Source of the DNA: Bolinopsis microptera
Lineage: Eukaryota; Ctenophora; Tentaculata; Lobata; Bolinopsidae
Assembly (NCBI RefSeq): GCF_026151205.1
Contig: NC_087079.1
Coordinates: forward strand, 4,173,230-4,237,229
Length of the DNA stretch: 64,000 nt
Reading direction: 5' to 3'
Part shown: piece after piece, positions 9,001 through 60,300 of the stretch
Layout: the number at the start of each line of letters is the position of its first letter
Numbering within the stretch: the stretch's first letter is position 1
Notes under the pieces: model-generated
Databases searched by the model: none
Told to the model about the DNA's origin: nothing
What the model saw: the letters and a program-made list of their open reading frames with translations, nothing else
Program-made: the position numbers and the translations under genes

Positions 9001-12000
9001 ACTGGCCAGATCCCCGTGACACGTGCACTGGTTTAATAATTGTATTAATTAAAATGCAGGTACATAATATAATCTTATACCAAGCTTGTGTATTAATTGA
9101 GAGCTAGGATATGGAGACCGGGGTATGTTTATTCCTCCTTCATTAAGGTATTCACGGTATGCGGCCGCGGGGAATGTATAAACCGACCAATCCAATCATG
9201 TTACACTTACAAGTCTTACATACAACCTTGTTTGAATATTAAAGAGTGGTTAGTGGTATATGGAACAGATGTGACCTTACTTTTTCTAGTATAGGTTGTG
9301 GTTGCACGTTTTTAGAATATGAGGTGGATAAAGGTGTGTTTCCACCACCGCCTGGCAACCAGTAACCCGGCAACCAGTAACTTCGGGTTATGGTTTGAAA
9401 TTTCAACAGGTTTTTACAATGTGGTACAGTGTTGACAAGGACATCGAAATAAAAAGTTATAAAAAACTAATAAAAATTTTATATTTCGGCCCAGGTAGTT
9501 TGAATGGTGAGCTATGAAATATAAAAACACGAAATAATAAGATTTGCTGATTTTCTGTTTCCGTTTTCCAGAAATAACCTGTCTGAAGGGCACATAATGT
9601 TACAATTATTGCACAAGAAAATTTTTACAGGCGATCTTAACTTTCTTAAGCTTATTCTTTTATCGCTCAGTTCAAACCCTAGATAAATCTCGCACATTAG
9701 TATTACAGCACATTCTCAACTTAAATATAATTCAACTTCAGTTTCACATTTCACGACCTCATCTTACGAGAACAAGACTAGTTGTTCAAGTCTTGTTCTC
9801 TAGACTAGACTAGTACTACTAGACTAGTACTACAAGACTAGTCCTTCTAGTCTTGTTCTTACCACTACTGTACTAATTTAAAAATATTTCTTCTAGATCA
9901 TTACATGACTCTGTAAGCTCACACACGATAACTAAATTGGCAAGCAAATCTTGCACTGTTTTATATCATAACAGGAGCATTTTATCACGTTACACATCTC
10001 TCCAAACCACGTGATCTCACAGTCACATGACCGTATAAGGATACAACGTGACGTCACATGACCAAATATGGTAACCACGTGACACGTTGGTGGGGCCACC
10101 TGACTGGCAAACTACCAAGATATATGTACAATAATTCATGTAGAATGAGCAGATTGTGTGCAGGGCAGGTGTGTGTAATATTAAGACGCAATGAAACTAA
10201 GTTTGTAATTAGTGATGACATTTTTATGATAACCCCGGTGACATTTTCTATTTTAAAACGCTCTCCTGACAGCCATCAAACAGATATTTTATAATAATAT
10301 ATGTTGTTAAATATGTGAGCTCACAATTATTATTCAAACAGAAAAGCGATATTTATTGATTTCGATACATAACAGCGATGAAAAAAGAGAGGGTAAAGAA
10401 CTGATCAAATTATGGAATACAATTAAACAAACGAAAACCAAGAGTTCAACCCTTATTAAGATGTTTTATATAATATGTACACTACACACTATACAGCACG
10501 CAAATTGAACAACTGCGGCAATAAACCCAGTCTTAATCAGACATTTCATGAGGAACAGGTGTAGATTTAAAAGTTATTTAGGAGTGGTTTAAGAATATAT
10601 TGACTGACCAAGCAGGACTAAAACGTGATTTTCAATAATGCTAAATATTTGGTATATAATAATGGGGGGGGGGGGGGGGGGGGGGGGTGTCATGTCCGTC
10701 TATGTCCGCCTATGTCCTGTCCTTTTTGGATTCTATGAGACAACGGACGTGTTTTTTGGGACATTGGCGGACACGGACGGACATTGGCGGACTCGGACGG
10801 ACATTGGCGGACTCGGACGGACATTGGCGGACTCGGACGGACATTGGCGGACTCGGACGGACATTGGCGGACTCAGACGGACATTGGCGGACCCGGACGG
10901 ACATTGGCGGACTTAGATGGACATTAGTGGACATTAGCGGACATTGGTGGACATTAGCGGACAAACATTTTGAGGACTGAAGAGTACTGAAGAGTACTGA
11001 AGAGTACTGAGGAGGATGGCTGAGAAGGATGGCTATGGAGGATGGCTGAGGAGGATGACTGAGGAGGATGACTGAGGAGGATGACTGAGAGGGAGGAGAA
11101 GGATCAGGAAGACCCAGGAGGAGGAGGAGGAGGAGGACCCAGAAGGAGGACCTAGGAGGAGGAGGAGAACTGAGAAGGATGACTGAGGAGGAGGAGGACT
11201 CAAGAGGAGGACTGAGGAGGACTGAGAAGGAGGAGGACTGAGGAGGATGGCTGAGGAGGATGACTGAGAGGGAGGAGGAGGAGGAAGAGGAGGAAGAGGA
11301 CTGAGGAGGAGGAGGAGGAGAAGGACTGAGGAGGAGAAGGAAGACCCAGGAGGAGGAGGACCCAGGAGGAGGAGGACCCAGGAGGAGGACCCAGGAGGAG
11401 GACCCAGGAAAAGGCCCCAGGAGGAGGAGGAGGACCCAGGAGGACTGAGGAGGAGGACTGACGATGACTGAGAAGGAGGAGGACTGAGGAGTACTGAGGA
11501 GGATGGCTGAGGAGGATGGCTGGGGAGGATGGCTGAGGAGGATGACTGAGGAGGATGACTGAGAGGGAGGAGGGGGAGGTCTCAGGAGGAGGACTCAGAA
11601 GGAGGAGGATCAGGAGGAGGACTCAGGAGGAGGACTCAGGAGAAGGACTTAGGAGAAATGAGAAGGAGGACTGAGGAGAACTGAGGAGGAGGAGGACTGA
11701 ATAGGAGGAGGAGAAGGAGGGGGACTGGGAGAGGACTGGGGAGGAGGAGGACTGATGAGAAGGATGAGGAGGAGGACCCAGGAGGAGGAGGACTGAGGAC
11801 CGAGGAGGAAGAGAAGGAGGATGAAGAGGAGGAGGAGGACCCAGGAGGAGGAGGACTGAGGAGGAGGACTGAGGAGGACTGAGGAGGACTGAGGAGGATG
11901 GCTGAGGAGGATGACTGAGAGGGAAGAGGAGGAGGAGGAGGAGGAGGAGGACTGAGGAGGACTGAGGAGGACTGAGAAGGAGGAGGAGGAGGAGGAGGAG

Positions 12001-15000
12001 GACTGAATAGGAGGAGGAGGAGGGGGACTGAGGAGGACTGAGGACTGAGGAGGAAGAGGAGGAGGATGAAGAGGAGGAGGAGGACCCAGGAGGAGGACCC
12101 AGGAGGAGGACTCAGGAGGAGGAGGACTGGGGAGGAGGAGGACTGTTGAGGACTGATGAGGAGGACTGAGGACAAGGAGGAGGAGTAGGAGGACTGAGAA
12201 GGGGAGGAGGAAGAGGACTGAGGAAGATCAGGAAGACCCAGGGGGAGGAGGAGGAAGAGTAGGAGGAGGAAGCATCTAAATGTTATTTCCATTTTTGTCC
12301 GTTTTTGTCCATTTTTGTCCGTTTTTGTCCGCTCTATTTTTTGTCCGTTTTGAAAATATAGGGTACCGAACGGACAAAAAACATGATCCCCCTATAACAG
12401 AAAAATTGAACATTTTATTTAGCAACTTAGGTGTCCATTAATGTCCGCCTATGTCCGCCTATGTCCGTCTATGTCCGCCTATGTCCGCCTATGTCCTGTC
12501 CTTTTTGGATTCTATGAGACAAGCGGACATAGACGGACGTGACACCCCCCCCCCCCCCCCAATAATGGAACAGATGAAACACGCAGCAAAGGTAGTAAAC
12601 TTCACGTGTAAATAGCACTACACTTACACGTGTAAGAGAGGTTATATAATAAGACTAAACCACCAGCTGCAGATATCTGATAAAGTCTACATTACAGGTT
12701 AATATAGGTGTGTACAGCTTAATTTAATATATTATCCGTGATATAAACATTATAATGTATATATATATATATATATATATTATATAAACACAGGTGATGT
12801 ATAGTTTGGTTATTATTATTAGGCGTGTACTGAGTGTGAGTGTGAGTGAGTGTGTGTGGTATAGTGGTTTAATTAAACGTATTGTGTGGTCTGATTTCCA
12901 TGTGTGTACCTGTGTACACTGTACATATATCACGTGGGGTTATTTATAGGCCGATTATATGAGGTTAGTATGAAGTGTAATGGAACACATTTAATACGTT
13001 ATAACACTGATAAACGTATAAAATACACTCACAGTGCAGTGAAGTAAAACTGAAGTGACAAGAAATAGTTCTGCATTCATTCTACCATTTTACCTCAACA
13101 AGTAGTGGGATTATCAACACGAGACTTAAAGCCTGGGGTTAAGCCACGTGATTGCTATATTTGGTCATGTTACTGTCATTTTGGTAGACTGTTGAAATGC
13201 TCTGTACATAGGTTTATCACAGTTGCCAGCAGACCGACTTGATGGCCTTTTAAAAACTAACTACAAAACAGGGAAAACTTTACTGTACGGTCTCCGGGAG
13301 GATAGTCTCGGGTGACGTCACTAGGACCAGTCACGTGACACTCCCTTGAGTTAGAATTACGCAGCAACACTGCTCACTAAATCCTACTTTACTAAGTTCA
13401 GCTTTACCAAGTCATGGGTTTCCTACTGATCAATGCTAAAACTACTGTCAACAACTGTTAATAATTCTCATGAGGTCGTTAGTTTTTCACAGCTCTTGTT
13501 TACAGTCTGGAAGTACTTATACAATGGGGATTACTAGAGTCAGATTGAACTCTAACTTTAGGCTTCAACAGTGATCTCACTGGTTATATTGAGTTTTAAC
13601 TTTAGAGAATCAGATATCTTCAAAACAGGATAAACCCCCTTCATTTTATGTCATAACTTAATATTATGAGTATTGGAGAAGGTCTACATTCTATGACCTA
13701 TGTCCCCGGGAAGTTTAGCAACTAAACCTTCCCGGAAAATGTTACAAAGTTTGACTTCAAGTAACAATAACTACGGTCAGAGGCCTCCGTTTGAAAATGC
13801 TACAGTTTTAACATCGCTCAGAAATATCACTTTGCACTAGGACCACATACATTAAGATAAAGAAGTAATTTGCCCGCTGACTTGAAACAGATATTAATCA
13901 CATATTGAGGGGTCCGACCATCCGCTCTACTCCTAATATACAATAATTGCAGTTTCACCATATAAAAGCACATTTAATCAGTGAATATTCCTATAACACA
14001 GCACATTTAATCAGTGAATATTCCTATAAGTAGAACATTTAATCAGTGAAACTAGACTTTCTTTCACAGAAGCACTACAACTGTTGGTCAGATGGATCTT
14101 CAAAGCCTCGCAACTTTTGGGATATTGTAAATTCTACTCTAGTGGTAAAGATAGAGATCCTTTTGAATCCTCACAAATTTTCAGGATATTGTGAACTGAC
14201 GACTGTGGGCAACATTGTTACATGTCAACCAGTGGGTTACTGAATGGAGTGAAGCTGGACAAGGACCTGTTAAAATGTTAACTCTCACCTCCTATCACCG
14301 TGTCAGTGTTATGACAACTTGATGGTCACTCGTAACATGGTGACCACTCAGACCAGTCACTGGTTACTAGTAAGTGGTCATGGAAACTAGTGATCAGTAA
14401 TAACTTCTGACAGGGTTGGGATAACATTTTCCTCGCAGTGTTTGGGAAGTTGGCAAATCTGTGATCTAACAGGGCCCACTCATAACTTAATATATGGAGA
14501 ACGCGAACGGTCGACTGTCATCCCCCTGCAGGGGGATGACAGTCGACCGTTCGCGTTCTCCATATATTAAGTTATGAGTGACTATGCAGATTAGCAGCAA
14601 GGGGTAACATTAGTTACCAACTTGGTAACCAAATTGGTAACTTGGTAACCAAATTGGTAACTTGGTAACCACCTTGGCCTTGGTAACTTGGTAACCATAC
14701 GCAGACAGCGACGGAGGAAGCACGTGAGCAGCTGTGGAAGATATGGAGTGACACTGACACAGTGATAACAGATGATTTCATATTCTAAGTCACGTGTCCT
14801 GTACAATAACCAATGTGAGACAAGTCACGTGGTCCAAAGAAACACCACGGGACCATATACGGTGATCACATGGTCAGTCAACATGTCTCTGCTGTATTTG
14901 GCAGGAGTGTTCCAGAAAAGGAAGGTAGAAATCGGATAAGTGTACTGAATGTCAGAGAGAGGGAGAGAGAGAGAGAGATGAGGTTTCAGTTACAGTGTAA

Positions 15001-40586: not shown

Positions 40587-42033
40587 CGTAGTTACAAACT
40601 CTAGCAGCTAGCTATAGCATTTTGTCTACGACATTTCTTGGAGGACTTCGCCGCAATTCGACGCGCCGCACAAACTATGAACTAACATTTTTGCTTCGCA
40701 TCGAAGATGGTTGCAGAACAACGATCTGGAGGGGTTGATATCGTCAATCAACGACATTTATTGATTTGGACATTTATATTTTGAACAATCGTTTCTACAC
40801 TAAATTCTATGACAAACGACGTGATTTCAGTTTTAAAGTTGTTTATACTGAGCATTTTTAGGCGAACTGTATAGGATATGCAAATCCTCCTCGCAGTCGC
40901 AGCTAGCAGTTACTGAATTTATTCATGATGTTAAATTATTGACTTTAAGTGATAAACTGATATGATTATCCAAAATTTTTAACGGAAGATCTTACATAAA
41001 TATCTTAAATTATTTATTAATAGCCAGCCAGCGTGTATCCTCAGACACTGGCATAATTTCACAGTCAATGACTTCATGTAATTATAGTGCATGTGTTAAG
41101 CCTCCTAGCTTGTAATTCCTTATGCATCGTTAACTTTTGCGAGAGTTTTCTCTTCGGTTGTATCGAAATAGTTTTATTTACGTTGACCACTCTTTCACAG
41201 TTTACTATTAAGCTTTCAAGCAGACAGCAGTAAATTATTTTGTTTTTATCAGACTTTTACTTAAGTCTAGTTTTACATTACTTTATCTGCATACTGTATT
41301 GATCTAAGGTGTAGTATTGCCAGATCCCAGTTCAATTTGTAACGGAGTTTTATATTAACAGGAAACGTTGTAACAGAGTCAATATTGAATATGGGGTGGC
41401 AAGTCCCCATACATTGTAGACCGATAGTTTCACTGTGTCATAATATGTAAACACGGCACACGAACAGCAAAAGGATGTATTTCAAATGATTACAGATTGC
41501 CAAATTTCAGATTGTATTAATATAAGTATTACGTCGCCTTATTGTCATTGATGTATGATGAACAAATAACCTGACTGCATGTGTAGTTTTAAAACAAAAT
41601 GTCACGGATGAAACAATAAAACGAACATCTCAACATCTAATTCTAAATGGAATATTTATATATATTTTTAATTACAGTTATACTTAAAGTCATATTCATA
41701 GTTGGTGACATTTACGAATATTAATAAAAAATAATAATACTAATACCGATCTGAGTCAGATTTCTAACTTTTAGCTACAAATTAGTGTTAAAAAAAACTT
41801 CTAAACGGAAAAAATCATGGATTTATTAAAACTAATATAACGGATACTGTGCAAGATCACTGTACAGCAAGAATCTATCAACTCAAAATCTTAACCACGA
41901 TATCTAATGGTTGATCTTGAAGCGTTTAAGATACTAACAAAATCTGGACATTCAATATATAATTGCAACTTCTGTCCAATATTTGCAAATTAGAATTGTC
42001 TTCAAATGTCAAAGGCCGACAAAAATTCCAATC
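40587..42033. other. Intergenic DNA 3' of the LPMO gene
   Basis: AT-rich sequence with no recognisable gene. It should contain the LPMO 3' untranslated region, with a minus-strand AATAAA at 41822-41827. Confidence 0.5.
41822..41827 (-). terminator. Candidate poly(A) signal of the LPMO gene
   Basis: Minus-strand AATAAA lies about 210 bases after the stop codon of the LPMO frame. It is the nearest good hexamer seen. Confidence 0.4.
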
Positions 42034-45000
42034 TTACTTTCCGCTGTAATCATTACCAAGTTCCCAATCGATGTATTCCTGTTCGTCCCCAGTATCATCT
42101 CTTTTTAGAAGTTTTACTCCGCTGTAATCATCGCCAAGTTCCCAATCAATGTATTCCTTTTCGTCCTCAGTATCGTCCCTTCTTAGAAGTTTCACTTTTG
42201 AATCTTGTTCTCGTATCTCCACTTCACTGATTAGAAGATCACCAAACTCACCTTCTGGGTACACACCAATCACTTTACCCTTGGCATTTTTGGGACATTC
42301 TAAGGTCACCGAAACGGCTGGAGCATTTTCGTTCATTTCGGAAATGTCAGGAATTTTATAATCTCCAACTGTTCCGCAAACGATCTTTTTAGTCTTTTCC
42401 TTCTTTTGTGTCCAAACTACAGCCGTGACACCCTTGAGCTTGTTCCATTTTTTAAGACAACTGTCTTTGTCCTGAGAACACTCCTCGTCATTGAAATACC
42501 ACAATTTCAGAGTTATGGATTTAATCTTATAGATCTTTTCCAACCATACCTTCAGTTCTGGATTCTTTTCTTCTTGCTCAACCGATGTAACAACCGATGT
42601 TTTAACGTAACCATCATAAGCATATTTCATATTAGCTCCCGCCATGGCACCATTCAGAGTTGCCTCCTTCGGCGTCAAAAGTTGTCCGTCAAGCTCTTCC
42701 TCTTCTCCGTCATCATCCTCAGCTTCCGCCTTTCCTTTTGCGTAACCTTCCTTAAAGCCGATTTCATACCCATCCTTGTATCCTTTTACGTAAGAAGCGT
42801 CGGATCCATCAGACCCGTCAGACCCGTCTGATCCGTCTTTTCCATCTGAATCTGATCCATCAGACCCGTCTTTTCCATCTGATCCGTCTTTTCCATCAGA
42901 TCCGTCTTCTCCGTCAGAATCATCAGAACCATCTGATCCGTCTTTTTCATCTGATCCGTCTTCTCCGTCAGAATCATCAGAGTTTTCACATTCTTTCTGG
43001 ATTCCTGAAATTACGCCGTCAGCTTCCACCGATTTTACAATTTTGTTCTTGAGCCAGCAACTCCTAGCGTACTCACCATGGAAGTTTTCGAGCACGTAGG
43101 AAAATGCAACACAGTCAGATCTTGCACTGCACTGTTTCTCACAGATATCAGCACTATCAACACGATTTTCTAGGCCGTTAACTAAATCCCCCTCATGAAA
43201 GGCTAAGTTCTGTTTACGCTCAAATGGACAGTTCCCATCTTCGTTTCCGTCAGAACCATCTTTTCCATCAGATCCGTCTTTTCCATTTGAATCTGATCCA
43301 TCAGACCCGTCTTTTCCATTTGATCCGTCTTTTCCATCTGATCCATCAGAACCATCAGACCCGTCTTTTCCATCTGATCCGTCTTTTCCATCTGATCCGT
43401 CTTTTCCATCTGATCCGTCTTCTCCGTCAGAATCATCAGAGTTTTCACATTCTTTTTGGATTCCTGAAATTACACCGTCAGCTTCCATTGATTTTACAAT
43501 TTTGTTCTTGAGCCAGCAACTCCTAGCGTACTCACCATGGAAGTTTTCGAGCACGTAGGAAAATGCAACACAGTCAGATCTTGCACTGCACTGTTGCTCA
43601 CAGATATCAGCACTATCAACACGATTTTCTAGGCCGTTAACTAAATCCCCCTCATGAAAGGCTAAGTTCTGTTTACGCTCAAATGGACAGTTCCCATCTT
43701 CGTTTCCGTCAGAACCATCTTTTCCATCAGATCCGTCTTTTCCGTCTTTTCCATCAGACTCATCGCATTCCGTTCGCATTCCGGAAATTACCCCAGCTGC
43801 ATCACGCTTATCATTTAGGTTGTTCTTCAACCAACAGCTTCGAGAATATTCACCCGCGTTTTGAAGGACATAAGAGAAACCGATACAGTCGGATCTTGAA
43901 TTACACTGCTCCTCACAAATTTCAGCACTATCAACAAGATTTTCCAGACCGTTGACAAGATCCCCGTTCCAATAACCGACATTATTTTGACGTTTGAAAG
44001 AACATTTCTCCGCTTCTTCATCCCCTCCATCAGATTCGTCACCTCCATCACCTCCATTATCTTCAGTGACCTTGATAGCGGAGCAGGTATTCCATATCTG
44101 AGGGGTCTGCTCGTTGTCCCACCTCCAAGACAGCACGTACTCTCCAAGCTCCAAATTTCCTGGTACTACCACCTTGTCAACTACTGCAAACTTGAAAGCT
44201 TTCTCAAAGTGTGTATCCCCTTGAGTAAAGCTGAACCCATGTAGACCCGGTGAAGGTGCGGGGAACTGAGTACCCTTAGGACAGCTGTTGTCGCTGAAGA
44301 ATCCTCCATCTCCTCCTTCACAAGGTGGGATAGGGTTTCTCCTCCAAGTAGAGCCAGTAGGTTTCGTTCCAATGTTAGTATCTGTAGCAGGGATAGACTT
44401 CCAAGTAGATTCTTCACCGTTGTGTGCAATGAAGTGGTTAGAGCCATAGAACTTGAGCGGAGATTTCTGAAAGCATTCCTCAGTAACACCAGCCCTTCCT
44501 CCGGCAGGAACCTTACAGATCCTATACTGGTACCCACCACCATGGTTAGCAGACAGAGAGAAGCCTACATTTTGAACGCTACCTCTGGGCCAGGTAGTCA
44601 TGGGAACATCTCTCTGCGCGTAGTACTCCTCCGCAGCCCGTCCGAAACTATGACCACCCCCCGGGCAGTTAATTTTCTCCTTGTTTACTCCCCTCGGGCA
44701 ACCCTCTGGATTCCCACCCGCTGATCCACAAGGACTGAAAACGCGGGCTGTGCCAGGGGCGTACCAAGGATTCAGTCCGTTTCTCCTGTCCACCTGCCAG
44801 TGCTTAAAGGTCCTCATACTTTCTGGAAGTGTCTGTCCCACTCCGTCCGGTACTCTGGTGAAGTTAGAATACCACTGTAAGGCACAGCTGTTGTCCACAC
44901 CATTTGCAGGATCGTTCCGTCCACATCCGATAAATCCTCCGTGGTTTTTGTAGGCTCTGTAGAGATTAAGTCCGACCTTTTGCCAATCTTGAAATACTGG

Positions 45001-45072
45001 AGGGTAGACCATGTTGCCATGTCCTGAAATCTGAGCCAGCAAGATTGCGAAGAAGGTGCAAACACGCAACAT
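42034..45072 (-). CDS. Secreted LPMO-like protein with three PAN/apple modules and a galactose-binding-like domain
   Basis: Single 1012-codon frame, no intron. Residues 1-17 are a signal peptide (ending LLAQISG) that exposes His18 as mature residue 1, the copper-brace His of lytic polysaccharide monooxygenases. The candidate second His is His177 in SANHGGGYQYRICK. WNTCSAIKV near 327 and EYVLSWRWDNEQTPQIW (311-327) end the catalytic-like domain. This set of motifs resembles LPMO-like proteins of algae and other protists (from recall) more than insect AA15. Three PAN/apple modules follow (about 357-436, 462-542, 614-694), joined by (SDGKDG)n linkers. A GYKDGYEIGFKEGYAKG helix spans 764-780, a fucolectin/F5-8-like domain 798-955, and a twofold acidic repeat ending EYIDWELG 958-1012. 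Likely role: oxidative binding or cleavage of an extracellular polysaccharide. The substrate is unknown. Confidence 0.85.
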   Translation of the reverse strand: MLRVCTFFAILLAQISGHGNMVYPPVFQDWQKVGLNLYRAYKNHGGFIGCGRNDPANGVDNSCALQWYSNFTRVPDGVGQTLPESMRTFKHWQVDRRNGLNPWYAPGTARVFSPCGSAGGNPEGCPRGVNKEKINCPGGGHSFGRAAEEYYAQRDVPMTTWPRGSVQNVGFSLSANHGGGYQYRICKVPAGGRAGVTEECFQKSPLKFYGSNHFIAHNGEESTWKSIPATDTNIGTKPTGSTWRRNPIPPCEGGDGGFFSDNSCPKGTQFPAPSPGLHGFSFTQGDTHFEKAFKFAVVDKVVVPGNLELGEYVLSWRWDNEQTPQIWNTCSAIKVTEDNGGDGGDESDGGDEEAEKCSFKRQNNVGYWNGDLVNGLENLVDSAEICEEQCNSRSDCIGFSYVLQNAGEYSRSCWLKNNLNDKRDAAGVISGMRTECDESDGKDGKDGSDGKDGSDGNEDGNCPFERKQNLAFHEGDLVNGLENRVDSADICEQQCSARSDCVAFSYVLENFHGEYARSCWLKNKIVKSMEADGVISGIQKECENSDDSDGEDGSDGKDGSDGKDGSDGKDGSDGSDGSDGKDGSNGKDGSDGSDSNGKDGSDGKDGSDGNEDGNCPFERKQNLAFHEGDLVNGLENRVDSADICEKQCSARSDCVAFSYVLENFHGEYARSCWLKNKIVKSVEADGVISGIQKECENSDDSDGEDGSDEKDGSDGSDDSDGEDGSDGKDGSDGKDGSDGSDSDGKDGSDGSDGSDGSDASYVKGYKDGYEIGFKEGYAKGKAEAEDDDGEEEELDGQLLTPKEATLNGAMAGANMKYAYDGYVKTSVVTSVEQEEKNPELKVWLEKIYKIKSITLKLWYFNDEECSQDKDSCLKKWNKLKGVTAVVWTQKKEKTKKIVCGTVGDYKIPDISEMNENAPAVSVTLECPKNAKGKVIGVYPEGEFGDLLISEVEIREQDSKVKLLRRDDTEDEKEYIDWELGDDYSGVKLLKRDDTGDEQEYIDWELGNDYSGK

Positions 45073-46349
45073 TTTGATTCTTGAAGCTACAAATATCCAC
45101 GAATCGAATAATTGGGTAAACCGTAAAAGAAGAACAAGAAGTGGTCACTTGGTCAGGTTATCCACCTTTTGTAGTGGTCTGGTGACAGGATAAACAATAG
45201 CGAACAAGTGACGTCAGGCCGTCAGGGACAACAAAGTGTCATTGTTACTTTGTTAGTATAGTAGTACCACTGCCCCTACCTTCTATTGTAGCTATTGTAG
45301 TATCAGTAAAGCTTATTGTTGCTCCGAGTCTTTTTAGCTTTTTAGCATAGCTTATTTTTAGTCTTTTTAGTTTAAGTGCATCTGAATAGCCACATAACGG
45401 TTATGCGACAAAATTAACGTTTAGGAATATTATTCGCATTGATATACAGAATGTGAAATAATGATATTAGCGGAAATGAGTAGTCCAGAAGATAACCTAT
45501 TGTGGGTAGATGATGATATTATGAGAAAGTTAGGCGGGTATAGTTATCGATAAAAGCTCTATTACATCTGATCTCGCATACAGGGAGCTTGAATAGAGTT
45601 TACGGAACAATCGAGTAACTTTAACAACAAAGAACAATAAGATATGATGTCAACACCAATGAATAGAAGCAGCAGCTTGTATCGTAGTATCATCAAAACA
45701 AACAAGATAACAGAATCAGTAACCCGGGTAACATCAAAACAATCAAGATGACAGAATTAGTAACCCGGGTAACATCAAAACAAACAAGATACCGAATTAG
45801 TAAACAGGGTGATAGAATAACAAACAGACTTTTCATCTTGAGTTCTTCTTCTCGCATGGTTTAATTCCACGCGGTAACGAATTTCAATATGTAATAAATT
45901 TAAGTTTGCTATGTCATCTTTGTCATATTATGAAAATTAAAAAAGTCTCATCTCATCTTTATCTAATCTGGTACAACAACAGCTTCTGCTGCCAATAATT
46001 TTAGCATATAAAATTTCTCAGAATTCACTCGGAAGAGCAGATAAGATGGTGGACACGCTACATAATGTTTAAAGGTTTTATAACGAAGTTATCATTAATC
46101 AATTTTGGTAATGGGACTGCCTAAATAAGTCGAGACTCGAGATTTTATATCTTTAATTTATTCAACTTCACCATGTTTACAAACCCTCACCATAACTTCC
46201 TGTCCCGGTAACATGTTATCTTAACCGCCGAACACTGGGACCACTGTGAACATGACTCACTCATTGTTATATTATATGCAACAAACTCACTCAGTAACCA
46301 TCCCCCATTTTGTACGTTTTTACTTTGCAAATAGTTATTGGTTAAAACG
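45073..46349. other. Divergent intergenic region between LPMO and pentraxin genes
   Basis: The two genes are head to head, 1.28 kb apart, so both promoters must lie here. A 38 bp tandem repeat is present (listed separately). No TATA box was recognised with confidence. Confidence 0.5.
45690..45815. repeat. Three ~45 bp tandem repeats
   Basis: AACCCGGGTAACATCAAAAC with CAAGAT and CAGAAT recurs three times with small changes. Confidence 0.85.
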
Positions 46350-47249
46350 ATGAGAGGTCAGGTAAACCTAGCAGTAGGTCTACTGTTCCTGTTGGTCAGT
46401 CCTGCTGTTGGATACAACACTGCAGAAGGTTCCAGACTAGTAGACAGACGGCAGTTCGCTCTCAAGTTCGGGGATACATTAGATGATTTCATCGTGTTCA
46501 GGCCCGATATGTCACCTCTACAAAATGCGCTTACAGTATGTTCCTGGGTGAGGACGCTGCAGACTTCCAATTGCCATCCTACCTGGTTATCTTATGCTAC
46601 TAGCACTTACAATCACGAAATATACATCTCTGATAACGGTCTCCACAACTATTTCCTCAATACTGACTTAGACATGAGCAGCAAGATAAACTTGTCTATA
46701 GGTGCATGGAACCACTACTGTGCTTCTTGGAGTACATCATCCAACACAAGGAAGATCTACTTCAACGGGGAACTTATTGGGCAGGGTGCGACAACCTCCA
46801 GAACTCTCGCACTAGGCGGGTCTTTAAACTTTGGACATGAGCGACACTTTGACGGCAGTAACAGGGAGGTCAGTGAAATATTCGGAGGGGAGCTTTTTAA
46901 GGTTAACTTTTTCGCAAAGGAGCTGACAGGGGAGGAGGTACTGGGGATGAAAGAGGCGGGACTCTGCTCGGACGTGGAGGAGAGTTACGGGAGAGTCCGG
47001 TATCTCAGATGGGAGGACCTACTCCTGGAGCAGAGAAACGGGAACATCACCGAAGTGACCCAGGATGTCCTGCTCGGAGTTGTCACGCAGAGAATGAGGA
47101 GGAGACTACAAACGATACAGAGAAACCCATACCAGGATCACCGGACAGCAGGAGTGTTGAGAAGAACACGACGGAATGTGAGTGTGAGAAGAAGGATCTC
47201 ACTCGCTGGGATCTACTATATTCTAAAGAGTTCTTCAACCGGACCCTGA
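46350..47249 (+). CDS. Secreted pentraxin family protein
   Basis: Residues 1-20 form a signal peptide. Residues about 30-205 are a pentraxin fold. The family signature H-x-C-x-[ST]-W-x-[ST] is present as HYCASWST (122-129), and Cys64 and Cys124 match the conserved pentraxin disulphide spacing. GHERHFDG (162-169) occupies the position of the calcium-binding loop, but the exact ligand residues are not clearly kept. Pentraxins are secreted lectin-like pattern-recognition proteins. I start at the ATG at 46350 rather than the TTG 12 bases upstream. The gene is intronless. The last ~60 codons in this frame are Arg-rich and unlike a protein. The +2 frame from about 47090 to 47311 is far more protein-like, so the C-terminus is probably frame-shifted or spliced. 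Confidence 0.85.
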   Translation: MRGQVNLAVGLLFLLVSPAVGYNTAEGSRLVDRRQFALKFGDTLDDFIVFRPDMSPLQNALTVCSWVRTLQTSNCHPTWLSYATSTYNHEIYISDNGLHNYFLNTDLDMSSKINLSIGAWNHYCASWSTSSNTRKIYFNGELIGQGATTSRTLALGGSLNFGHERHFDGSNREVSEIFGGELFKVNFFAKELTGEEVLGMKEAGLCSDVEESYGRVRYLRWEDLLLEQRNGNITEVTQDVLLGVVTQRMRRRLQTIQRNPYQDHRTAGVLRRTRRNVSVRRRISLAGIYYILKSSSTGP

Positions 47250-48479: not shown

Positions 48480-51400
48480 TTAAACAGGAATTAAACAGGA
48501 ATTAAACAAAATTGGGTCAAACGGCAGATGCCGTGTCTGACCAATATAGGAATAGAAGGTTTAAAATTCAAAACTACCCCAATGTATCAAATAACCAAAC
48601 AAGGTGGTAAAAGTAGATAACCATGTGAAAGAATATAGCACAGATAGCACAGTCGTATGCAGAAAAAACTCAGCCAAGAGCACTCAACAATGACAAAGAA
48701 AGTATCATACAATGTCCACACACTTATCAAAATATACAAAACACGACATTCATTCAGTATTTTTCTTCGTGAACCTCCGTTCATCGACCTTATTTAAAAA
48801 CCGTCCAATGTCTCTGATAGTTGTTGAGTCGTCGAAGATTTCTCCCGGTTCTTCTCTCATTACTAACAGGTCCCTCGTTCGTTGATGTAGGTTTTTGCGT
48901 AGGTCTTCGTATAGGGGGCATTCGTAGAGGATGTGATGCTCATCTTCTATCACTGGATAGGCCCCTGGTAGCTCATAGAGAAGATCTAACAAGTCATCGT
49001 CACTTGAGCAGCAATGTCTGCAGGCCCGATGTTTTATGTTAAACCGCTTTTTGCCGTAGCGACCAGTTTCAACGTTAAAGCGGTGGGAGCTGCTTCTGAA
49101 TTGCGCGATCTTCTTTGAGCAGTTAGGTTTAAGATCAAGGGCTAGATACGTCTCTTGAGCAAACTTTCTCTTCACTAAGTTGTAGAATGATAGTTTTCTG
49201 TTAGATGTCCTTTCTGTTTCCCATGAGTTTATAAACCACTTTTGCAAACTCTTTCTAATCTGGCTTGGTCTTAATCCTTGGTTTCTCTCTGATGCCTCGA
49301 TGGTTTCTTGCATCTGCTCGAGAGTGGAGAACCAGCTCAGGTTTAGGGTCGCCTGCTCTTCGAAAGCGTGTCTAGCAAAGCAGTCACGACCGTCTACAAC
49401 CATTTGTTCAAGTCTTTCTTTGTAGTTAAACACTTGCTTTGATAGCGTGATGCCTAGTGGATGCCTGCCTGTGTCACCCCATATCGCAGCATTGGATGTT
49501 GACTTCCTCACCCCTAAGGTCCATTTCAAAAGAGACAGATGAAAGTTCTCTAGAGGGTCCCTGGCAATGAGTGTACACACGTTTCCTGTTTCTGGTGTGG
49601 TGCTCGTGTTTGCGGGGAAGTTGCGGAACAGAGCTGTGCTTGGCAGCCACACTTGGCAACCATACGACACCACAGGTACAATAAGTGTATCATATAGCTT
49701 GAACAGTATAGATTTCCTGATGTGGCGGGTATCAATGTAGCTTTTCAAAGAGAAATAACTTCTTAATGCTTTTTGCCTCAGCTTTTGTTGTGTTAGCTTA
49801 AGTGATCCGCTCAGAGTAAATGTAATGCCAAGGTAACAGTACTCTCTCCCGGAGGGGATCTGTTGTTCTCCCAGTTTGAACTCATGACTTTCCTTCAGAT
49901 GCCTTCCTGTTGGGTTAAACACAAGGACTGAAGTTTTTCCAATGTTTACTGTCAGGCCCCATTCTGAGCAGTAATTGTTTAGGACATCAAGCATTTGTTG
50001 AAGACTGTGTTTGTTGAGGGCTAGAAGGACAAGGTCGTCTGCCCATAGCAGATGAGTTATATCTGTATCATTTAGGACAGGGACTTTCACTCCTTCGATG
50101 TTGTTGAGATCATGTGAAAGCTGGTGGATAAAGCATTTAAACAGTTCAGGGGACATGGGGTGTCCTTGTTCAGTACCACATATTATGTCGATCTTCTGTG
50201 ACAGCTTGTCTAGTAGCTTCACTTTGGCTGAGGAGTTTGAGTACATGAACTTAATGCACTCAAAGAATCTCCCTTGAATACCCATTTTCCACAACTTGTA
50301 TAGGAGTGCCTCACGACAGATGGAATCAAACGCTTTGGCATAATCGACAAAGCATGTGTATAGCCTTTGGCGTTTCTTGGTGACATACTTTTCCACGCAG
50401 GTTGAAAGTGTGAAAATGTGGTCAGCTGTCTGTGCGTCTTTACAGAAACCTAGTTGGTTGGCTGTATCAGGATCACATTGATCACGGAATGATATCAATC
50501 TTTTCAGCAATATGCTTGCAAAGAGCTTTCCGAGATTGCTCGCTACAGCGATGGCTCTGTAGTTGTTTGGATCATAGATATCACCTTTTTTGTGTAGTGG
50601 TGTAACTACTGATGAAGTCCATGGGTAAATTGATAGGCTTAGGCAGTGGTTGAAGAGGTTGAGGACTGCTTTGAGCATGGATCGTGTTGAGGCTTTGAAG
50701 AATTCATTAGAAATTAGATCTTCGGAAACTGCCTTTCCTTTTTTAGTGGCCTTAATGCAAGCACACAGCTCTTCCATCTTTATATCTTGATCCAAAAGCT
50801 TGGTCAGGTCGTCACAAATGTTGTTTTTCTGCATCTTTGACTGTAGCTCTGCGATCTTAGAATCTTTGATGTTCTTTTTGCCGTAAAGTTCACTGAAGAA
50901 CTTGCAAAAGTTGATCATATCGAAGGCATATGTCTTGATATCAAGACTGGTTGCAGGCGATTTTGTATTTTTAAGAGCTTTGAAGGATTTCCAGCAGATG
51001 TTGTTCCCTGTTTCTATGTCCTTGCAAAGCTTCTCAAAGAATTCTGATCGCTTATGTCTGATCATCTTTCTATATTGTCGCCGAGTGTCGTAATAAGAGT
51101 CCCTGAGGAGCTTGTCCAATGGGGATCTTCCATACTTTTTTGCTAGAATGTTGAGTGTCCTCTTAAGACGGATACATTCACTGTCAAACCATGCCATTTT
51201 TGGCTTCATTCGACTCTTCTTTTTGGTGCTACCATATTTATTATGTCTCGGCCCTTTCTGACGACTTGAGGCGTTTTTTCGGGGCATCACTTGTTCAGCA
51301 ACTTGATGATACAGCTCAACAATTTGGTTGTTAAGGTTAAGAACGTCTTGAGGGGTTTTGCATGAACTTGTAGCCAGAGTTTCCGTCTTTTCCTTTATAC

Positions 51401-52052
51401 TAGGGTCACCCATAGCTAGCAAGAATTTGAGCTCAGCATTATCCTCACATGGCCATTTGTACTTCCTGGGCGCGTCCTCGAGGTCACGCAGTATTTCTTC
51501 TGAAAGGGTTATGTTGTGTCTTAGGCTAAGTGTTGTGACAGAGGGTTTGTGATCGGAGAATTTGTTCAAATCAAGGACTCTGAAACTCTTAACGATCGCT
51601 TTTATGTCAGCTCCTACAGCAACATAGTCTACAACGCTAGCTCCGCCATAATTCACCGATGTGAATTCCCCTAAGGAATCGCCAAGTACGCTGCCGTTTA
51701 GGATGGTTAGATTTGCACAGGCCAGAAAGTCAAGGAGTAACTTTCCTCTAGGATTAACCATGTGGTCCTTGCTAGAACGATCATTGAGACAGGGGTGGCT
51801 GCGTTGGCTAAATGGGTTTGCAGCAGATAATGCTTCAGTATCTTCCTCGATGGTGTTGTTCAAGGTTGCGGTCCTTGCATTGAAATCACCTGCTAGTATC
51901 ACCTTCCTGCCGTTTTGAATACTATTCATGGTGAAGTCAAGTAAGTTGTCTAGAGTTGAAGCATCGTCATCGTATGTACTTTTGCTTGATTTCAATCTCT
52001 TCTTGTAGGAAGAGTGCTCATTTGTAAAACATGGTAATCTCAGTTCATTTTA
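48480..52052 (-). mobile_element. 5'-truncated LINE (non-LTR retrotransposon)
   Basis: The minus-strand element starts inside the endonuclease domain, since the frame meets a stop at 52050-52052. It ends in a 3' region with about three tandem TTAATTCCTGT units at 48480-48510, as short tandem 3' tails do in several LINE clades. Endonuclease remnant, reverse transcriptase and a C-terminal Cys/His domain are all in one frame. Loss of the 5' end makes it non-autonomous unless another frame upstream was missed. Confidence 0.88.
48750..51995 (-). CDS. LINE polyprotein: partial APE endonuclease, reverse transcriptase, C-terminal zinc knuckle
   Basis: The uninterrupted frame of about 1080 codons begins at a non-ATG codon and stays open about 19 codons further upstream. 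Visible motifs are endonuclease GDFNAR (36-41) and SDHKP (147-151). Reverse transcriptase motifs are NNYRAIAVASNLGKLF (477-492), FVDYAKAFDS (549-558), GTEQGHPMSPELF (607-619) and catalytic WADD (651-654). The C-terminal motif is CRHCC with HHILYECPLYEDLR. The intact frame suggests a recent insertion. The clade (CR1/Jockey/L2-like) cannot be settled by eye. Confidence 0.9.
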   Translation of the reverse strand: MKSSKSTYDDDASTLDNLLDFTMNSIQNGRKVILAGDFNARTATLNNTIEEDTEALSAANPFSQRSHPCLNDRSSKDHMVNPRGKLLLDFLACANLTILNGSVLGDSLGEFTSVNYGGASVVDYVAVGADIKAIVKSFRVLDLNKFSDHKPSVTTLSLRHNITLSEEILRDLEDAPRKYKWPCEDNAELKFLLAMGDPSIKEKTETLATSSCKTPQDVLNLNNQIVELYHQVAEQVMPRKNASSRQKGPRHNKYGSTKKKSRMKPKMAWFDSECIRLKRTLNILAKKYGRSPLDKLLRDSYYDTRRQYRKMIRHKRSEFFEKLCKDIETGNNICWKSFKALKNTKSPATSLDIKTYAFDMINFCKFFSELYGKKNIKDSKIAELQSKMQKNNICDDLTKLLDQDIKMEELCACIKATKKGKAVSEDLISNEFFKASTRSMLKAVLNLFNHCLSLSIYPWTSSVVTPLHKKGDIYDPNNYRAIAVASNLGKLFASILLKRLISFRDQCDPDTANQLGFCKDAQTADHIFTLSTCVEKYVTKKRQRLYTCFVDYAKAFDSICREALLYKLWKMGIQGRFFECIKFMYSNSSAKVKLLDKLSQKIDIICGTEQGHPMSPELFKCFIHQLSHDLNNIEGVKVPVLNDTDITHLLWADDLVLLALNKHSLQQMLDVLNNYCSEWGLTVNIGKTSVLVFNPTGRHLKESHEFKLGEQQIPSGREYCYLGITFTLSGSLKLTQQKLRQKALRSYFSLKSYIDTRHIRKSILFKLYDTLIVPVVSYGCQVWLPSTALFRNFPANTSTTPETGNVCTLIARDPLENFHLSLLKWTLGVRKSTSNAAIWGDTGRHPLGITLSKQVFNYKERLEQMVVDGRDCFARHAFEEQATLNLSWFSTLEQMQETIEASERNQGLRPSQIRKSLQKWFINSWETERTSNRKLSFYNLVKRKFAQETYLALDLKPNCSKKIAQFRSSSHRFNVETGRYGKKRFNIKHRACRHCCSSDDDLLDLLYELPGAYPVIEDEHHILYECPLYEDLRKNLHQRTRDLLVMREEPGEIFDDSTTIRDIGRFLNKVDERRFTKKNTE

Positions 52053-54308: not shown

Positions 54309-57300
54309 GTAGGAAAAGATTCAGATAATGCTTACATATTGAAACTTTGATAATAAATTATTGGGAATTAGAGTTTTCAGCGCATATCAAAAAGTTACTA
54401 ATCCAATCTTATCAAGCTAATTGCAATACGAATAAAAACAGTCGCTTGCTTTTGTCATTAATTATTTATGGCCTTCCATTTTTGGAAATTTCATAATATT
54501 CAAAAGCTTTCCATTCCAGCTTGGAGAAAAGATAGGAGATGTGGAGAAAACTTTCCCCTCGCTGACGGTACCCCTGCTCAGTGTAATCCTGACAGCGAAG
54601 AGCTATGCTGTACACCGTCTGGGTGGTGCCGCGGCTCAACCTGTGATTGTGAAGATTGCATTGACTACAGCAAGGAACTGAACAGTGAGTCTTACTTAAC
54701 TATAATTGATAAACAATTCATACAAAAATCCCCTGATCGGTTTCAAATCCCCTCAGTGTTGCTCGCTTATATGATGATATTGTTATACTTATAATATTGA
54801 TATGTGCCGCTGTCCTTATGCTCTTATGTAAAAGTACAAATTGTCATTAACTCATCCCTTGTCATTGACTCATCCCTTAATTACTTGTAATGGCCTTTAT
54901 AGCTTTAAGCACTTTTTACGGATCTGACTTCTGAGGTAAGCGTTTATCCAGAGATATGTTCTTTATAGCCACACAGTTAATTTTATTTTATTTTCACAGG
55001 TAATGGTATAAGTGAGTGGAAGCGTGTGCCCTATTATGGCCTGTTGGAAATTCCCACCGACAGCAACCTCAGAAAGGTGGAAAGGTACTTCGTCAGCCAA
55101 CATTGCATAGCCGGAGTATATAAGGGTTGGTTTAGGCTTATCCTCCGAAGTGAGAGTGCGTCAGTCGGTATCACGAAGGGTGCCAACTCGATAGTCAGTT
55201 TTTTTCCTAAGGTGCGTTTTCCAATTTTAATAACGTTAATGTGGCTCATGGCCATGCTGTGTGTTCGTTAAGCCGAATTAATTATTATATAATCAAGTTT
55301 ATTTTGTAATTTAGTTAGTTGTCATCCGGCTGCTTAGTATATGCAACTAGGTACGACTAGCCCGTACTTTTCATCTTAGGTGTTAAATCAACTTAATGTA
55401 GAGTTTATATTTATCATTATCCCTTAGTTAACGAAACTAACAAATACAACATATCCTCCAGGGCAATGGGCACATCTGGTGTGGTGCTCATGGTGCAAAT
55501 CCAAATCAGCTAGGAGTGTATACTTTCTTTAAATTGAACGAAGATGCTATAAAATGTGAACCTGATGGAAGATACATTATCTTTGTGTGAGTTTGGAATA
55601 GTGACCTTCAACACTGCTAGAGTCACAGAAATTAAGATGTTTTTTATGATGTCAGCTAAATCCATTTAATAATTTATATATTTATTGGAGACGTTTTAAA
55701 TTTTCGGAACGTTTGCATATTATAAATACTACAATTTATAAATTAAATATTCCTGTAATAAATCAATAATTATTATTAGAGTGGAGAAAACAGCAGACAG
55801 AGTCACCATCAAGAACGAAAGAAAAGTTTTGTACAGCCTGCACTTTGATACTGAAAAGTACGCAAAATGCAGCGAGAAGACAAACTTTGTCTTACCTCAA
55901 ATATTCGGGGAAAAAAAAGATAAATTGTTGTATATTGGTCTATACTCTCATTTAGGTAAGTTCGCGGAATTCCACTATAAGTAGAGGGGAGGGGTGTTCT
56001 GTAAAACATTTCAGTTCCTCTCTTATCATATTATAATCATTCATGTCAGAATCTTTTTAAATTTCAGGGATTACTAATATGGGCCAGATTCCCTGAGAGT
56101 TTTGTAAAGTTTCGTCGATTACAGTAATTGGTGTGGCGTGCCATTTCCTTTCTTCCACTATTTTCGTCACAAAATTAGAACACATTATTGTTGGACTTGT
56201 TATATGAGGGAAAGTACAAAATAGGTAAAGTTGGCGGGTTTCCATCGAGGCCCGATTACTGCATATGAGTTTTCGTACAGCGTTTGACTTTGATCACGCT
56301 GACTGCTGGCTAGACTCGGGACAACTCAGCTCCTTTTTGGGGATGTCTGAGTGTTTCTGAGAACTGAATGTTAACATCAATTGGGTATCCAGGCATCTGC
56401 CATGTAGGATTTTCCATACATGAATGATCATGTACCGTTCTCGTTTTCTGTGAATATGCGCTGAGACCCCCCCGGCCAGTTTCTGTATATCTGCATTTTT
56501 GCAACGGTTCAATAAGGGGCAGCTAGCGATGGCTCCTGACAAGAAATTTTAAATGGTCATCACCGTGACTTCATTTCCGCAATTTAAAAAAAGTGGAAAC
56601 AAATAATTCTTCGCACAAGTGAATGGTACTTACTATAGGTAAGAGTTATAAAGTAAAAGACCCCAGCGGAGTGATAGGAGGATGTACTTGATACTGTTGT
56701 CCTGAAGCGATCCCAGCCATAGTTGGTTGAAGTTTTTTTCGTGCGTTTAAGTGCGGTAAAGTGCGTTACGTGCGTCTGCCTTTACATTACGAGGTTTACG
56801 AATTAAAAAATGACAAAATTCTTCATTCCTGCATCTTACTAGGGTAGTGTAAAAGAAACTACCACGTGCAGCTGCACCAGTCGATTTTCAGATGCACTGA
56901 TATTGCGTACATTACGGTGGATATATACAAGTTCCTCCATTTTTTCCGTGCCCACGCACTGTTTTGTTAGAAACAGATATGAAATTGCGTTTTTAAAAAA
57001 TTTCGTGCGTAAAGTGCGTTTAGTTTTAAAAGTGCGTTTAGTGCGCACGAACCAACTATGATCCCAGCCAAACCTACTCAAAGTACTCGAAGTACTAAGT
57101 ACTTTATAACAATAATGTTTGTTACAGATCGCTCATGCTCGGCTGGAAGCGCCATGTCACCAAGACACGAATGTCAGCAATGTGGAGAGGACACTTTCAG
57201 TGCTGCTGGAGCTTCTTCATGTTCTGATTGTCCTGAGGACAAGGTCTCAGCTGCCGGTTCTACAAAGATTGACGACTGCGTTTATGGTAAGAAAGATACT

Positions 57301-60300
57301 CTCTTCCTTATAAACATTGAACGTAATATAATGATGCGATATGAACAATTACTAAACAATGATTCCTTGAATTCAATTAAACAGTGCAATTGTGATAATC
57401 ATTTTAGATTATCAAAAGACGAATATTTTAGTACCAAATAGGTGATTTTAGAAAACAAATTGTCTTAAACAATTTTCCACATTTTTTTACAAATTTTGTG
57501 TCTTAAAATATTATAAATTTGGTACTAAAAGATTCGTCTTTTCAAGTTGATTACGATTCTGTAAAAATTATTTCAAAAAAACTGATACTTTTTGAGTTAT
57601 AGGCATTTTAAGCCTTAAATCTGCCATGTTTGGCCCTTTTCTACGATGAATTTTACTAAGTCGTTTGGGGCCACATTTCATACCTTAAAACTCAAAATTG
57701 AGAGAAATTCTGTTCCGAAAAGTTGAATATGATCATCAGCTACACTCACAAGAATTTTTGAAGCGATATTTTATGACCTGGGTGAATGGTAAAATATACA
57801 ACTTTGATTTTTACAAAAATTTCAATTTTGCTTCTCTCGACCTTGTTTGGTTTGTAACTTCGTTATCTATATTTTAAGTATACAATCTTTTGAAGGGCTT
57901 CTTGTACGGATTGTAAATAATGTTCAGTTAAAAAAATCAGCCAAAAAACTTTTAAAATGGCCGAACTATCGGTATTACTATTACAGTGACAGACTTCTCC
58001 AAATTTTAAAAATTTTCGAAAAAAGAAAAACATTTTTTTCTCGATGAGGGACTATTTTCAGAAAATTTTGAAGGTGTGCAATCTTATTCTTTTTGTCTAA
58101 TTAACCATAATATAAAATAAAATCGATGTTCGGAGCAAAAACGTTTTTGGTGTATCTCCCCTTAATAATAGCGTTTGGTTTTTTTTGCACTGCTAATGGT
58201 ATTTGTTACAGCTCCCTGCTCGGCTGGAGGATACATGACGGATAGTGGATGTCAGCAATGTGGAGAGAACACTGCTGCTGGAGCTTCTTCATGTTCTGAT
58301 TGTCCTGAGGACAAAGTTTTAGCTGATGGTTCTACAAAAATTGACGACTGCGTTGGTAAGAAAAATACTATCTTCCTTACTTCCTAATTATAAACATAAT
58401 ATAGTGCTGCGATGTAAAAAACTAAACAATGATTCCTTGAATTCAATTTAAGCAGTGCAATTGTGCTAATCGTTTTAAATTATCATTTAAATAGCGTTTA
58501 GTTCTTTCGCCAATTAACAGCTTATAAAGGTCGTTTTAATTTTATCCAAACCTAGGATCACTCGCAAGATTTAAGGCAAACGCACTTTAACGCTCTTAAA
58601 TCACTTTAACCCTTATCATACTGTAGTGATTGGAGCTCATTCATTACTGGGGGTGGCTTGAAAGGACCCATCCCAAATAACTTTGGTTCTAGACGGTAAT
58701 CAGCCACCACCAAAAGTGGAATGATTTCGGTATACTTATATTAGTTCTACAAATTTTGCAGAACGTTGGTGGGCCTTGGTGAATTGCAAATATAAGTGAA
58801 TTTGTGTGTATTTGAAAGTTGTGAACTATATGATTCTATTCCAAATATGACAAACAAGGTAGAGACATTTTAGGAAAGATTAAAAGTTTTAGAAATCAAC
58901 TCAAGTTTTCAATCATAATCATCGTACAAAATGTATAAAATTTGGATACGAGTGTTCGTAATAAAGAATTAATGGCTCATTTACACGAGTCACATAATGA
59001 AATAAGATGAACCTTCGTGCACATCCTAAGGCCACAACTTTTACACTGACATTTGACCTTCGACAAACCGCTGACCTTCTTCTTATAGGCCTACCAACAC
59101 TCAACAGTTGCACCCATTTCCCACACCTTAACAGGCCATTAATAGGCTCCCAATCAGTGACGTGATCTGATTAGTCATTTCGGATTCTCAAAACGACAGT
59201 TGCGCCCTAGGATCGCCGGAGATGCTCAAAGAACCAGAGTCTGAAGTGCCTGAAGAGGGGAGGGAGAGGGAGAGGGAGATCAGAGGAACAAATTATAACG
59301 CACTTTACGCACTTTTCGACACACGAACCAACTATACTGTCGATCGCGCCCGCCCTATTACTAATAATAATAACCGTGCATCAGAATTGTGACAACTTTT
59401 TTGAATGGTACTCTGCAGGTTGTGTAAAGCTATAAAAATATTTATTTCAAGGAATTTGGAGGAAGAAATTTGGCAAATTTCTGAGCCGTTACAGTGCTGG
59501 AACCGCCAAGTACAGTACTCTTTTGGTGGCTCAGGGCGAATGTCTCAAACGATCTGGTGAGTTCATACTTGCAGATATATATTGAAATAATCATATCGAT
59601 TAGATAATGTGTTAGGCAGAATCTCTGGTAAGAGTCAACCTTGTCATAAATACAATATTGTCCCACTAGATTGTGGAGGTATAACATACGAATCCTTCTC
59701 CAAAAAGTACTCTCTACGAAAAGGAACCGAATTCAAGGATAGTCCCTCCGGCCTCGAAATATCCTGGATACATGAAGGTGAATATCAATTGTGATAATCA
59801 TTTATAATCATTTAAATAACGTTTAGTTCTTTTGCCAGTGAACAGCTTATCTTATCTTATCTTATGAGGATTCGTTGCGACGCAACAAGGCCATCGAATG
59901 AGTCGACCACCTTTGTTATTTTATTTCGGCATTACCTGCATTACAATGTAAACCAGCACTTTCAAGGAAGAGCTTTACAAGAAGCCGAAGGATCGTTCCT
60001 AAGGCCAGCAACGGTTAAGGCACTATGCCACACTTTCTTCGCCCGAGGCTTCGCTGTGTTGATCAAGCACAGCTCCTCATTTAACCCTCACACCCGATTT
60101 CTCGAGCATTCGGCTGAGTGAACCGTGGGGCTACATAGACCACTCGGGATCCTTAGCAGAGCGTCAACGACGCTCACCCCACGACTAGGCAGGCAGTGGG
60201 ATTCGAACTCGCAATCTTACGATTACAAATCCGATGATCAACCAACTACGCTACCTGGCCGTTGTAGTTTAGCTTATTAAGGTTGGATAATTTTTATCCA

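Follow-up and report, generated by a model that had tools for sequence, protein, structure and literature searches.

A single-exon ctenophore gene for a predicted secreted modular protein with a putative AA15-related LPMO-like head

Does a ctenophore possess an LPMO and, if so, from which LPMO family would it derive, how did the gene come to reside in the genome, and on what would its product act? These questions are raised by a long open reading frame in Bolinopsis microptera, located in a 64,000-nucleotide stretch of genomic DNA that was analysed as a whole and is referred to below as the window.

Gene structure and accessory modules

The frame at 42034-45072 on the minus strand, which an earlier note made from the sequence had described as an intronless modular gene, is real: it runs uninterrupted from ATG to stop and encodes 1012 amino acids in a single exon, with no intron in the coding part. 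The log10 probability of a 1012-aa open frame arising by chance, estimated from the window's stop frequency, is -26.8. Contamination was rejected, as an 18.5-Mb scaffold surrounds the gene. Host genome searches covered 264,652,675 bases in 232 contigs; the table entry for B. microptera, in the part of PMC11797021 available to us, gives 265 Mb, 13 chromosomes with a largest size of 26.2 Mb, 346 scaffolds and 38.5% GC. No Rfam family exceeded its gathering score over the window. The features of the transcription unit, all on the minus strand, are as follows:

42034..45072, minus: single-exon coding sequence, predicted secreted modular LPMO-like protein, 1012 aa
45022..45072, minus: signal peptide, aa 1-17, cleavage placed by inspection at ...AQISG|HGNM
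44059..45021, minus: LPMO-like domain (head), aa 18-338, of three families tested closest to AA15
45019..45021, minus: His18, the would-be mature His1 and first arm of a histidine brace
44542..44544, minus: His177, residue 160 of the domain, aligned with His91 of 5MSZ
44092..44094, minus: Trp327, opposite the axial Tyr184 of 5MSZ in a stretch of the alignment not clearly above chance
43765..44004, minus: PAN/apple module 1, aa 357-436
43690..43764, minus: acidic Gly-rich linker, aa 437-461
43447..43689, minus: PAN/apple module 2, aa 462-542
43231..43446, minus: acidic Gly-X-Asp linker, aa 543-614, collagen-like by Pfam, proline-free, longest run 15 triplets
42988..43230, minus: PAN/apple module 3, aa 615-695
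42784..42987, minus: acidic Gly-X-Asp linker, aa 696-763
42205..42705, minus: galactose-binding/F-type-lectin fold, aa 790-956
42037..42195, minus: acidic tail repeat in two copies of 26-27 residues each, aa 960-1012
41822..41827, minus: AATAAA polyadenylation-like signal, about 200 bases 3' of the stop codon

The three PAN/apple modules that had been proposed are all present, scoring 38.9, 39.1 and 37.7 bits for modules 1, 2 and 3, respectively, over the Pfam PAN_4 cut-off of 27 bits, and module 1 matches the apple domains of plasma kallikrein in the PDB (E 4.9e-7). The resemblance to plasma kallikrein lies in the modules themselves, whereas here they are fused to an LPMO-like head, and the Pfam scan lists no protease family. 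Of 243 bases, 238 are identical between modules 2 and 3; five codons differ, two of them altering the amino acid, and the pair is apparently the product of a recent internal duplication. When module 2 was used to search the genome, a first look in which six candidates were scored, the three in-gene copies alone were found.

On the linkers, Pfam Collagen scores 49.7 bits, exceeding the 27.2-bit cut-off; despite this score, a collagen triple helix was rejected as the main reading, because the Gly-X-Y runs in the three linkers are short (15 triplets at the longest) and proline-free. Six NCBIfam families were listed for the protein, none over cut-off, and the best four fall on the Gly-rich linkers. 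The fucolectin-like domain that had been suggested downstream of them stood up as well, with a fold of the galactose-binding or F-type-lectin type at aa 790-956. The fucose-binding motif of F-type lectins is His...RxD; as this region contains neither a histidine nor an RxD, the motif is missing, which sets the domain apart from F-type lectins such as eel fucolectin (1k12).

Affinities of the head and its candidate copper site

The earlier note had also read the N-terminal domain as LPMO-like, with both candidate copper histidines in place, and the alignment bears this out: His18 falls on His1, His177 on His91 and Ala175 on Ala89 of the AA15 protein TdAA15A (PDB 5MSZ), for which the accessible part of the AA15 paper names His1, His91, Tyr184 and Ala89 as copper-site residues (PMC5823890). 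The leader in front of His18 is a hydrophobic stretch of 17 residues, its cleavage point being placed by inspection. LPMO_10 (PF03067) was the sole Pfam family listed for the head at E up to 10, while the reversed control yielded none. Its score, 20.6 bits (E 7.8e-4) on the head alone and 16.8 bits (E 0.012) on the whole protein, is below the curated cut-off of 23 bits, as compared with 68.1 bits on 5MSZ itself, and no LPMO was among the matches listed by phmmer against the PDB. In pairwise BLASTP of the head with 5MSZ, the segment around domain His160 was recovered at E 2e-4 (12/55 residues identical), together with an N-terminal segment at His1 (E 0.06), the two being collinear.

The significance of these resemblances was assessed with 2000 shuffled targets at gap 11/1, repeated at gap 9/1, for the whole domain, the second-His region, domain aa 1-60 and the last 47 residues. 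The comparison covered one structure for each of AA15, AA10 and AA9. The numbers of shuffles, out of 2000, that reached the real score are listed in the order whole domain, second-His region, N-terminus, last strand:

AA15 (5MSZ), gap 11/1: 6, 1, 4, 359
AA15 (5MSZ), gap 9/1: 6, 2, 6, 504
AA10 (2BEM), gap 11/1: 533, 468, 1384, 103
AA9 (2YET), gap 11/1: 1320, 1136, 581, 106

When the head was shuffled instead of the target, the AA15 score was reached in 0/1000 cases in local and global mode alike, and the CBP21 score in 244/1000 local and 20/1000 global alignments. The AA10 (CBP21, 2BEM) and AA9 (2YET) structures share the His1 start with the head, but show no above-chance likeness at the His1 or His160 segments, nor in local alignment of the domain as a whole. 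Two separate, collinear histidine segments rise above chance against 5MSZ and thus point to AA15. Against AA15, the C-terminal strand of the head stays within the range of chance, and it scores slightly better with AA10 (103) and AA9 (106). The suggestion that the head is of a protist type rather than AA15 was thus not upheld, as 5MSZ alone of the three LPMO structures stands above chance at the histidine segments; moreover, the contrast is not a clean one, because AA15 itself includes algae, oomycetes and cnidarians, according to the part of PMC5823890 at hand.

Taken at the level of sequence, the head would be a distant LPMO relative, closest to AA15 among the three families compared. In common with TdAA15A, it has a histidine at the predicted mature N-terminus of a secreted animal protein, a second histidine in the motif A-x-H-x-G-x-[FY]-x-[FY]-R-[LI]-C followed by T-x-[DE]-C-F, and ten cysteines, seven of which occupy shared columns in a pair alignment whose second half is doubtful. 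It differs in length, 321 aa versus 192 for the stretch of 5MSZ, having long insertions and about 130 extra residues, and in its partners, which are PAN and lectin-fold modules as opposed to the CBM1, CBM14, GH18 or GH19 described for AA15 in the available text of PMC5823890.

The residue of the head that aligns with the axial Tyr184 of 5MSZ is Trp327, in a stretch that scores no better than chance against 5MSZ. The Gln-x-Tyr of AA9 (2YET) aligns with Gln325-x-Trp327 as well, with a score reached by 99/2000 shuffles at gap 9/1. For arthropod proteins, one figure of the AA15 paper marks Y, F or T as the axial residue (PMC5823890, consulted in part). The assignment of Trp327 to the axial site is treated as a lead, since the aligned stretch is not clearly above chance. 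A single-sequence AlphaFold model of the head reached a pLDDT of 31.4, too poor for histidine-brace geometry to be read from it.

Might the head simply belong to an ordinary AA15 enzyme, vertically inherited and fast-evolving in ctenophores? Such an explanation overlaps with the one we prefer, differing from it in claiming family membership, and we regard it as quite possible, if somewhat short of an even chance. AA15 is the nearest of the three families compared, and the family, as presented in the part of PMC5823890 seen, takes in cnidarians, oomycetes and algae; on the other side are the 12/55 identity even in the best segment, the LPMO_10 score under its cut-off, the additional residues and the aligned axial Trp. 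We do not file the head as a member of AA15 but treat it as putatively AA15-related, because it falls below the Pfam cut-off and the identity of its axial residue is uncertain.

Origin of the gene

The lack of introns had been called compatible with horizontal transfer or retroposition in the earlier note, a reading that the data do not bear out. With regard to retroposition, 41001-46500 lacks A/T runs of 10 bases or longer, the flanks 45073-46400 and 40801-42034 have no exact direct repeat of 13 bases in common, and no parent gene or paralogue was found in the animal's own genome in a first look with a single candidate scored. A Pfam LPMO_10 search over the whole own genome gave 0 matches at E up to 1; it missed the window gene itself, and is therefore insensitive. 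Nor is the single-exon structure peculiar to this gene, as a second secreted single-exon enzyme, a chitinase with an N-terminal CBM14 and the GH18 motif FDGLDLDWE, is encoded at C3:6173624-6174661.

Motif scans of viral contigs yielded 4, 0, 0 and 2 stretches, with no LPMO-like frame seen by eye in those six, and viral origin was rejected. A scan of viral contigs at the protein level yielded a single stretch and no relative, the same type of scan gave nothing in the phage set, and one motif in prokaryotic contigs gave 6 stretches, all judged from their frames by eye to be due to chance.

Acquisition of the head from a protist by horizontal transfer, with later fusion to animal modules, would account for a protist-like sequence and the lack of introns. 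It is consistent with the gene being single-exon and present as the single copy found in the first look with one candidate scored, and we also count in its favour the algal and dinoflagellate proteins that, we assume, carry motifs similar to those of the head. However, the gene is embedded in an 18.5-Mb scaffold, and in GC3 the head (0.489) comes close to the resident chitinase (0.537), though it exceeds the PAN/linker part (0.320); the C-terminal part has 0.396. The resident chitinase, too, is single-exon. AA15 is described, in the portion of PMC5823890 available, as ancient and common to protists and animals, so that vertical descent suffices and requires no transfer; as the family is widespread in animals, algae and oomycetes and also holds cnidarians, protist likeness by itself is no argument for transfer. 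Overall, there is no positive evidence for either transfer or retroposition, and we consider an origin by transfer improbable.

Chitin-related setting, proposed function and neighbouring features

The genome has at least ten matches to GH18 chitinases, on C3, C11 and C15. Those at C11:10877600-10886065 are in tandem and contain stops within the matched region, as introns would give. No chitin synthase homologue was identified in ctenophores according to the part of PMC10216261 consulted, so that an endogenous chitin substrate is not expected. Three chitinases with the catalytic motif are reported for each of the crustacean-eaters Mnemiopsis and Hormiphora, and none was found in Beroe, which feeds on ctenophores only (PMC11184263, in the text available).

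Our preferred explanation, to which we give an even chance, is that the gene is native to the ctenophore and that its product is a secreted modular protein, the divergent AA15-related LPMO-like head of which nicks prey chitin. We infer copper binding, activity, substrate, expression site and the role of the other modules along the following lines. Cleavage of the signal peptide would expose His1, which together with domain His160 would hold one copper ion; given a reductant and O2 or H2O2, the copper site would make oxidative nicks in the crystalline chitin of crustaceans taken into the gut as prey, which would thereby become accessible to the GH18 chitinases of the animal. Anchorage on glycoproteins, mucus or the prey surface would come from the lectin-fold tail and the three PAN modules, spaced by acidic flexible linkers. 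The protein may in this way help in the digestion of crustacean prey; judging from diet, a ctenophore LPMO would most likely act on prey chitin beside the chitinases.

The chief competing explanation is that of an LPMO-fold protein which no longer cuts polysaccharides and has a secreted adhesion, mucus or immune role, its head binding copper or glycans while attachment is the task of the PAN and lectin-fold modules. Binding modules and linkers take up about two thirds of the length, and the near-identity of PAN modules 2 and 3 (238/243 bases) would mean that the binding part is what grew recently; the Trp aligned at the axial position and the chitin synthase unreported in ctenophores (PMC10216261, as excerpted) are in line with it as well. 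Nevertheless, both histidines of the candidate copper site have been kept, as have the Ala next to it and ten cysteines, none of which a non-catalytic protein would have to retain. Furthermore, a study of Mnemiopsis tentacle and colloblast genes has lectin categories, but the terms "apple domain" and "PAN domain" are absent from the part of it at hand (PMC6278862). On balance, a non-catalytic role appears rather unlikely, and we favour the chitin-nicking protein.

In the open-licence literature we found no paper joining LPMO with ctenophores, and none joining AA15, LPMO and the PAN domain. We tentatively suggest, with more doubt than confidence, that this is the first ctenophore LPMO described, representing a separate AA15-related family with an axial Trp in place of Tyr/Phe, with PAN and F-type-lectin-fold modules, and with a foreign or non-chitin glycan as its substrate, in a lineage without a known chitin synthase. 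An LPMO in a ctenophore would be a case of such an enzyme serving to attack food or foreign glycans, as opposed to a cuticle made by the animal itself, and would be relevant to the question of whether the first animals had LPMOs; the axial Trp and the PAN and lectin-fold partners, if true, would extend the range of designs known for animal LPMOs.

Several other features were observed in the window and in the genome at large. A genome search for Antp-type homeodomains gave 19 matches, the most similar being 55% and the top-ranked 47% identical, with no clear Hox gene. The frame at 57013-57441 (plus strand) has weak ELAPOR1 and ephrin-receptor-like cysteine-rich matches that are under cut-off. 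The stretch at 10001-12000 is G-rich on one strand, with a GC skew of 0.47, and several long overlapping frames at 10710-12391 (minus strand), in or near it, possibly represent a repeat tract. A 1099-aa open frame at 48750-52049 (minus strand) belongs to a non-LTR retrotransposon; among PDB entries, its RT part matches proteins of LINE-1 and R2. A gene at 46335-47249 (plus strand), divergent from the LPMO-like gene and starting some distance upstream of it (about 1.3 kb), encodes a protein with a signal-like start and a pentraxin/laminin-G-like domain (Pfam E 9e-11 and 2.4e-13).
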